Source: Rhodanobacter sp. 67-28 (GTDB lineage Bacteria; Pseudomonadota; Gammaproteobacteria; Xanthomonadales; Rhodanobacteraceae). Taken from it: 54,599 nt of DNA. The translations under genes were made by a program, and so were the position numbers. Position 1 is the first letter of the stretch. Each line of letters begins with the position of its first letter. The notes below the pieces were generated by a model. That model was not told the DNA's origin, made no database searches, and saw nothing but the letters and a program-made list of their open reading frames with translations. The stretch lies in NCBI GenBank assembly GCA_001898415.1, contig MKTU01000048.1, forward strand, positions 1 through 54,599, given 5' to 3'. Positions 26,551-26,700 of this stretch are shown piece by piece.

Positions 26551-26700
26551 TGCAGGCATCCATGCCTGCAAGAGCAAGTCAAGAAGCGGCCATCCATGGC
26601 CGCACTGTTGAAGGAAAGCGATCATTCGTGATCGCAGGGCAAGATCAAGAAGCAGCCATCCGTGGTTGCACTCTCAAATGAAGCGACGCTTCGTCGGCGC
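26551..26700. repeat. Array of five covarying hairpins in atpG-atpD spacer
   Basis: Five hairpins start at 26551, 26586, 26618, 26652 and 26683 (31-35 bases apart). Stems: GCAGGC/GCCTGC (plus an outer T-A), GCGGCC/GGCCGC, GCGATC/GATCGC, GCAGCC/GGTTGC (one G-U) and GCGACG/CGGCGC (one mismatch). Loops: ATCCAT, ATCCAT, ATTCGT, ATCCGT, CTTCGT. Linkers alternate between an AGAGCAAGTCAAGAA type and an ACTGTTGAAGGAAA type, giving a 66-base two-hairpin unit repeated about 2.5 times. The arms change together while the loop and linkers stay similar. Same family as the atpH-atpA array. Confidence 0.9.

Follow-up and report, generated by a model that had tools for sequence, protein, structure and literature searches.

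REP elements and BIMEs (RAYT; GTAG and CGTC superfamilies) are short palindromic stem-loops, present in many copies per genome and often clustered. Fungal mitochondrial DNA contains double-hairpin elements, in which the loops are conserved and changes in the stems are compensated. For REPs and BIMEs, the defining mark is a GT(A/G)G head beside the palindrome, and REP palindromes are maintained through complementary changes, as set out in the available portion of PMC2817692. According to the accessible sections of PMC12306157, most REPs of E. coli are transcribed and 446 of 4,072 lie within 15 nt of a stop codon, while an earlier study cited there counted 260 of 496 within this distance; REPs placed in this manner are reported to stall ribosomes and to lower translation. 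Some GTAG REPs have short loop types in common (PMC3733652, in excerpt).

The hairpins which we describe here, located between atpG and atpD of Rhodanobacter sp. 67-28, belong to a scattered double-hairpin repeat found in Rhodanobacter-type bacteria (Rhodanobacteraceae). The repeat resembles REP elements and BIMEs in its short palindromes, in its many copies, in the complementary changes of its stems and in the proximity of many copies to stop codons, but differs from them by the absence of a GT(A/G)G head, by the lack of a numerical link to Y1 transposases and by a longer unit, mostly 57–73 bases among the copies of two complete genomes (G025 and G030). Furthermore, its six-base RTCCNT loop is constant while the stem letters vary widely, and in contrast to BIMEs its two hairpins, A and B, stand head to tail and uninverted. 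From the fungal mitochondrial elements it is set apart by compartment and sequence. Like hairpin RNAs of the RsmZ/CsrB type, the opposite strand of the repeat carries ANGGAY hexaloops on variable stems; however, the mostly transcribed strand is the complement, and the copies are dispersed in operon spacers instead of forming a single sRNA gene. With the Rickettsia palindromic elements, as far as the available part of PMC10969869 describes them, it shares the occurrence of palindromic repeats in frame within genes, but it is shorter than these elements of about 150 bp, forms a double hairpin and is mostly intergenic.

Hairpin arrays in the ATP synthase operon

The window analysed here is a stretch of 54,599 nucleotides, positions 1 to 54,599 of contig MKTU01000048.1; its AtpG and the AtpG of Rhodanobacter lindaniclasticus DSM 17932 share 98% identity. 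The array between atpG and atpD and its surroundings comprise the following features.

25632..26549, + strand: atpG, F1 gamma subunit (Pfam ATP-synt, E 1.1e-98); its stop codon adjoins the array
26551..26570, + strand: unit 1, hairpin A, TGCAGGC-ATCCAT-GCCTGCA, 7 bp, loop ATCCAT
26571..26585, + strand: unit 1, linker AGAGCAAGTCAAGAA, with similar linkers in copies elsewhere
26586..26603, + strand: unit 1, hairpin B, GCGGCC-ATCCAT-GGCCGC, 6 bp, loop ATCCAT
26604..26617, + strand: unit 1, tail ACTGTTGAAGGAAA (in the family approximately ACTCTTCAANAAGAGC)
26618..26635, + strand: unit 2, hairpin A, GCGATC-ATTCGT-GATCGC, 6 bp, loop ATTCGT
26636..26651, + strand: unit 2, linker AGGGCAAGATCAAGAA
26652..26669, + strand: unit 2, hairpin B, GCAGCC-ATCCGT-GGTTGC, 6 bp including one G-U, loop ATCCGT
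26670..26682, + strand: unit 2, tail
26683..26700, + strand: GCGACG..GGCGC stem, resident in the atpD leader and outside the repeat; its frame occurs in element-free relatives
26740..28173, + strand: atpD, F1 beta subunit (Pfam ATP-synt_ab, E 4.3e-66)

The array thus consists of two tandem double hairpins of about 66 bases, each in the order stem A, linker, stem B and tail, with RTCCNT loops. The covariance model R1, for which eight double units from this genome served as building sequences, matches unit 1 at 26547-26618 with 75.6 bits and unit 2 at 26613-26684 with 70.3 bits, both units being among those eight. A preliminary description of the site had counted five hairpins. Four of them stand, with coordinates, stems and loops as seen in the sequence, while the fifth at 26683-26700 does not: its GCGACG..GGCGC frame is present in 34 of the 39 related atpG-atpD spacers that lack the element (by pattern count), and we therefore read it as a resident piece of the atpD leader. 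With the fifth hairpin being a different thing, the array comprises two units and not, as had been proposed, 2.5 repeats of a 66-base unit. The regular spacing of the hairpins was described correctly, the four starting 32–35 bases apart, and so were the two alternating linker types and the direct repeat with its 66-base period. A GGCGACGC..GCGGCGCC-like stem was also observed at the corresponding position of the atpD leader of relatives, Luteibacter included, in the presence as well as in the absence of the repeat.

The window has a GC content of 69%, at which hairpins are common, so that their bare clustering is weak evidence. Four hairpins of 6 bp with six-base loops per 150 bases were found at 4 starts (3 places) in 454,599 bases, while a third-order Markov sequence of 9,091,980 bases gave 15 such starts, corresponding to about 0.75 expected for 454,599 bases. 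The minimum-energy fold of the sense-strand RNA of the atpG-atpD spacer includes all four array hairpins; its folding energy is ordinary (z -1.29), with 25 of 200 shuffles folding equally well. Both statistics were rejected as insufficient proof of the array. What raises it above chance is that loop and linkers are shared, that the genome contains further copies and that the stems covary. At gathering score, the Rfam covariance models detected only a tRNA in the window and gave no hit for the array. Function as an intrinsic terminator was discarded as well, because no T run follows any of the four hairpins when the sequence is read by eye.

A companion site in the atpH-atpA spacer, at 23751-23938, had been pointed out in the preliminary description and proved real. 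It holds three units of 60–62 bases, the first of which is degenerate.

23751..23811, + strand: unit 1, degenerate, without R1 match
23812..23871, + strand: unit 2 (R1 match 23812-23878, 29.6 bits)
23872..23937, + strand: unit 3 (R1 match 23874-23937, 41.1 bits)

The RNA fold of this second array has a z of -4.27, and the element is present in 32 of the 76 located atpH-atpA spacers of relatives.

A dispersed repeat with covarying stems

In its own genome, model R1 detected 32 places at E<=0.003, the eight building sequences included and 150 of 958 candidates scored. When 45 genomes of the genus, the own one among them, were searched under stricter filters, every one had between 3 and 56 matches at E<=0.001. 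From the order, 250 genomes were taken and searched with a second model, R2, scoring about 20 candidates in each; 59 of them gave matches at E<=1e-4. For both models, E-values are rough. The same family accounts for 36 of these 59 genomes, the remaining 23 hold 1–4 matches each, and R2 gave no match in any of the twelve genomes listed for a single genus, g33, of this family. The expectation that a covariance model would find further copies was therefore borne out many times over. In plasmid and phage collections, a 69-base repeat query returned no match at E<=0.01, and no earlier description of the repeat was found in the literature searched, largely open-access papers.

Stem pairing was assessed in two sets of elements, whose alignments were fitted to a model that leans towards pairing. 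In set A4, comprising 95 distinct elements from atp loci, 98.7% of 1073 cells are paired and 8 of the 12 pairs are changed on both sides, with double-sided changes in 121 cells compared to 30.7 in shuffles and at most 21 in slid controls. In set A5, comprising 78 elements from the two complete genomes, standard pairs fill 97.7% of the 880 paired cells, and changes on both sides are seen in 10 of the 12 pairs, here in 123 cells, where shuffles gave 27.0 and slid controls no more than 18. The latter set took 64 of the 68 fetched loci, omitting the rRNA-operon repeats L241 and L260 and the overlapping loci L199 and L207. Its 78 elements display 46 spellings of stem A and 28 of stem B, gapped spellings counted. 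The six-base loops, on the other hand, vary little: position 2 is T in 62 of 63 A loops and 70 of 71 B loops, position 3 is C in 61 of 63 and 66 of 71, position 4 is C in 63 of 63 and 69 of 71, and position 6 is T in 58 of 63 and 69 of 71, respectively, while position 5 is free. Covarying stems and a near-fixed loop thus support selection on structure, as the preliminary description had claimed from the array itself.

The odd stem pairs carry a signal on the strand. Among 231 unique elements, counted without opposite-strand cross-matches (7 from set A3 and 1 from A4) and omitting the 10 helices with fewer than four Watson-Crick pairs, G-U occurs 57 times compared to 30 times for A-C (p 0.005), and as distinct arm pairs 37 times compared to 19 times (p 0.02). 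At the loop-closing position, G..T is found 93 times and A..C 9 times in the six-base loops of unique elements. The excess of G-U over A-C favours sense RNA as the strand that matters, with the relatedness of the sequences, a mild preference of the model for G-U and transcription-linked C-to-T change as possible biases of this asymmetry.

Presence and absence at orthologous sites show gain or loss of the element. Copy number and number of Y1 transposases were not linked over the 45 genomes (Spearman 0.03, p 0.82), and nine genomes without any Y1 match nevertheless hold 9–56 copies of the repeat, so that numerical dependence on Y1/RAYT transposases was rejected. Beside the two Y1 loci of the own genome, no model match exceeded 8.6 bits. 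A GTRG head is not enriched at the 5' foot, occurring in 4 of 88 copies compared to 12.4 in shuffles, nor at the 3' end in the reading of the other strand (5 of 88 compared to 17.1). In the arrays of the window and in tandem atp matches, A and B have the same loop orientation, and the alternating orientation of BIMEs was not observed. As head, RAYT link and BIME arrangement were each looked for and not found, we do not file the repeat as a REP.

Gene context and related genomes

Genomic context was analysed in the complete genomes G025 and G030, where 88 places form 75 clusters after merging of tandem copies, with distances taken from the lowest-coordinate member and all contexts from a retrained gene caller, whose starts are less sure than its stops. 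Of the 75 clusters, 8 lie within called genes, the copies being mostly intergenic. For the 57 clusters located between or inside co-directional genes, 40 are in sense orientation (p 0.003, orthology uncorrected) and 17 are antisense, which shows that a strict sense function is not universal. At leading-strand genes 33 of 47 clusters are sense, at lagging-strand genes 7 of 10, with the replication origin taken as base 1 of the two single-contig genomes, in agreement with rRNA and atp directions. Replication-strand bias was therefore discarded as the cause of the sense bias, the rate being 70% in both gene classes, with only 10 lagging-strand cases. The same preference appears in another set of 55 best-scoring places, 27 of them flanked by sense genes on both sides and 6 by antisense genes on both sides, and at the 80 atp loci, where 95 of 96 matches are sense and the single antisense match overlaps a sense one. 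Common descent of copies and the duplication of rRNA operons mean that these counts are not independent.

The copies gather at stop codons in both orientations. Relative to the upstream stop codon, 22 of 35 sense intergenic clusters lie between -5 and +10 bases, and among antisense intergenic clusters 9 of 14 lie within 10 bases of the stop of a neighbouring gene. At L258, three neighbouring genes, paralogue-like by eye, each carry a copy at the stop codon (1501, 4309 and 7042). From G025, 28 host genes were extracted and 18 of them scanned with Pfam, by which S7, S12, S13, L6, EF-G, EF-Ts, RpoA, aldolase, GAPDH, COX3, NDK and AtpC were identified, among others, as well as RimP, YajC, Prs, FliP and a YCII protein; AtpG and AtpH were assigned by eye. 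Among these hosts are many genes known for high expression.

All eight rRNA-operon clusters are in sense orientation, a label assigned by locus and checked by eye; they represent two sites in two operon copies per genome. In L240 and L259, the copies are located in the 16S–tRNA-Ile and 23S–5S spacers (L240: 1498-1569, 4904-4962 and 5029-5099; L259: 1534-1597 and 5011-5081; all sense), and they are possibly relevant to rRNA processing.

Some copies lie in frame inside genes. In mutS, for which 42 of 45 genomes matched the region and 30 loci plus L081 were aligned, an in-frame element replaces about 10 resident codons in 10 of the 31 loci examined (L285-L293 and L081), nine copies adding about 10–16 residues by match length. 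The mutS copy of G030 (L081) is a partial tandem copy. In-frame copies were further detected in a Pfam DHH protein and a Pfam Aconitase_C protein, which are RecJ-like and LeuD-like, respectively. In one sense frame 70 of the 88 copies of G025 and G030 contain no stop, in another 68.

At the atpG-atpD junction itself, 80 related atp loci were fetched from named genomes and both spacer ends were located in 78. The preliminary description had looked to this spacer in sister species for paired arms, an expectation that holds for half of them: the element is present in 39 of the 78 spacers and absent from the other 39. In 13 of the 39 element-free spacers, an unrelated hairpin of 6–13 bp spans the atpG stop, with stems that differ between species and are still paired (L103, L104, L117, L120, L122, L123, L131, L133, L135, L143, L144, L151 and L158); when the downstream side was shuffled 200 times, no more than 1% of the shuffles equalled any of these. 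No such hairpin was found in the 39 element-bearing spacers (Fisher p 7e-5, ignoring phylogeny). By a pattern rule, three further element-free spacers (L106, L137 and L157) contain a GGGATT-type inverted repeat, a distinct long repeat of GGGATT/GGGAAT steps to which L153 is alike by eye. With the rules used, 23 of the 78 spacers, all 10 Luteibacter loci included, have none of the three kinds of hairpin, a count that includes L153 as well as L111 and L127, whose stop-spanning stems have 5 and 4 bp. Element, stop-spanning hairpins and bare spacers together indicate that structure at this junction arose in more than one way and is not indispensable.

Competing readings and working model

From the sequence comparisons, we consider it somewhat better than an even chance that the array represents a dispersed Rhodanobacteraceae double-hairpin repeat which works in a REP-like manner, as RNA hairpins behind stop codons. 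Transcribed hairpins directly behind a stop codon would protect the upstream message from 3' decay, and/or would slow terminating ribosomes; in either case the hairpins could thereby set the output of neighbouring genes in one operon. By analogy, the stalling of ribosomes by REPs at stop codons, as presented in the accessible sections of PMC12306157, is the nearest working model for the repeat. The preliminary description had proposed effects at the mRNA level, for which sense orientation and the preponderance of G-U over A-C among odd pairs give a hint, while the antisense share, the 39 of 78 spacers without the element and the ordinary fold energy of the atpG-atpD spacer count against such a reading. 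Alternatively, sites near stop codons may just be those at which an insertion can be tolerated.

In a purely DNA-level reading, the repeat would be mobile or selfish, with one strand folded into hairpins by an enzyme that reads the RTCCNT loop, RNA effects being incidental and stop proximity reflecting the survival of insertions. Presence and absence at orthologous sites, tandem copies, a kept loop on a free stem, the mutS copies replacing resident codons in 10 of 31 loci and the occurrence of both orientations, both near stop codons, speak for it. Against it stand the asymmetry of G-U over A-C, the sense bias of 70% for leading- and lagging-strand genes alike (only 10 cases for the latter), and the number of Y1 transposases being unrelated to copies (Spearman 0.03, a comparison that covers Y1 families only), and we regard it as a possible, though distinctly less probable, account. 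A more novel reading is a repeat class of its own, spread by an enzyme or process that reads the folded RTCCNT loop irrespective of the stem letters and kept as a general RNA device behind stops and in rRNA spacers. On this view, the origin of atpG-stop hairpins by two or more unrelated routes would point to structure being needed at that spot; we consider this reading rather unlikely.

Two further readings assign the hairpins a protein partner or a single target. The opposite-strand loop ANGGAY fits the ANGGAN motif, through which CsrA would bind to transcripts made in antisense or to copies in antisense orientation, and these would act as RsmA/CsrA decoys or sites. The loop frequencies complement this consensus (motif as given in the available part of PMC3791407), the own genome has three CsrA-family matches (C26:194388, C50:15666 and C21:76969) and the 17 antisense clusters would fit; against this, the motif lies opposite to the host-gene strand in 40 of 57 co-directional clusters, the G-U asymmetry points to the other strand, and the minimum-energy fold of the minus strand loses the B hairpins, although the centroid retains three of the four hairpins. 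We consider such a role quite improbable. Least probable by far is a dedicated regulator of ATP-synthase subunit stoichiometry at atpG-atpD. The position in the operon and the unrelated hairpin kinds at the same stop codon of relatives speak for it, but the element is absent from 39 of 78 related spacers and the same repeat occurs at many unrelated genes and in rRNA spacers. The specificity for atpD and F1 stoichiometry suggested in the preliminary description did not survive this finding, with copies behind ribosomal-protein, elongation-factor, glycolytic and oxidase genes.

REP families, as far as the papers cited above describe them, are identified through their head and palindrome and linked to RAYT transposases, whereas in the repeat reported here the loop is constant, the stems drift with compensation and a head is absent. 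A loop-constant repeat without head or visible transposase link lets one ask what is read and copied. It likewise lets one ask whether selection at the RNA level acts on hairpins close to stops, a question for which the atpG-atpD junction offers a natural experiment, with relatives that carry the element, an unrelated stop-spanning hairpin or neither.
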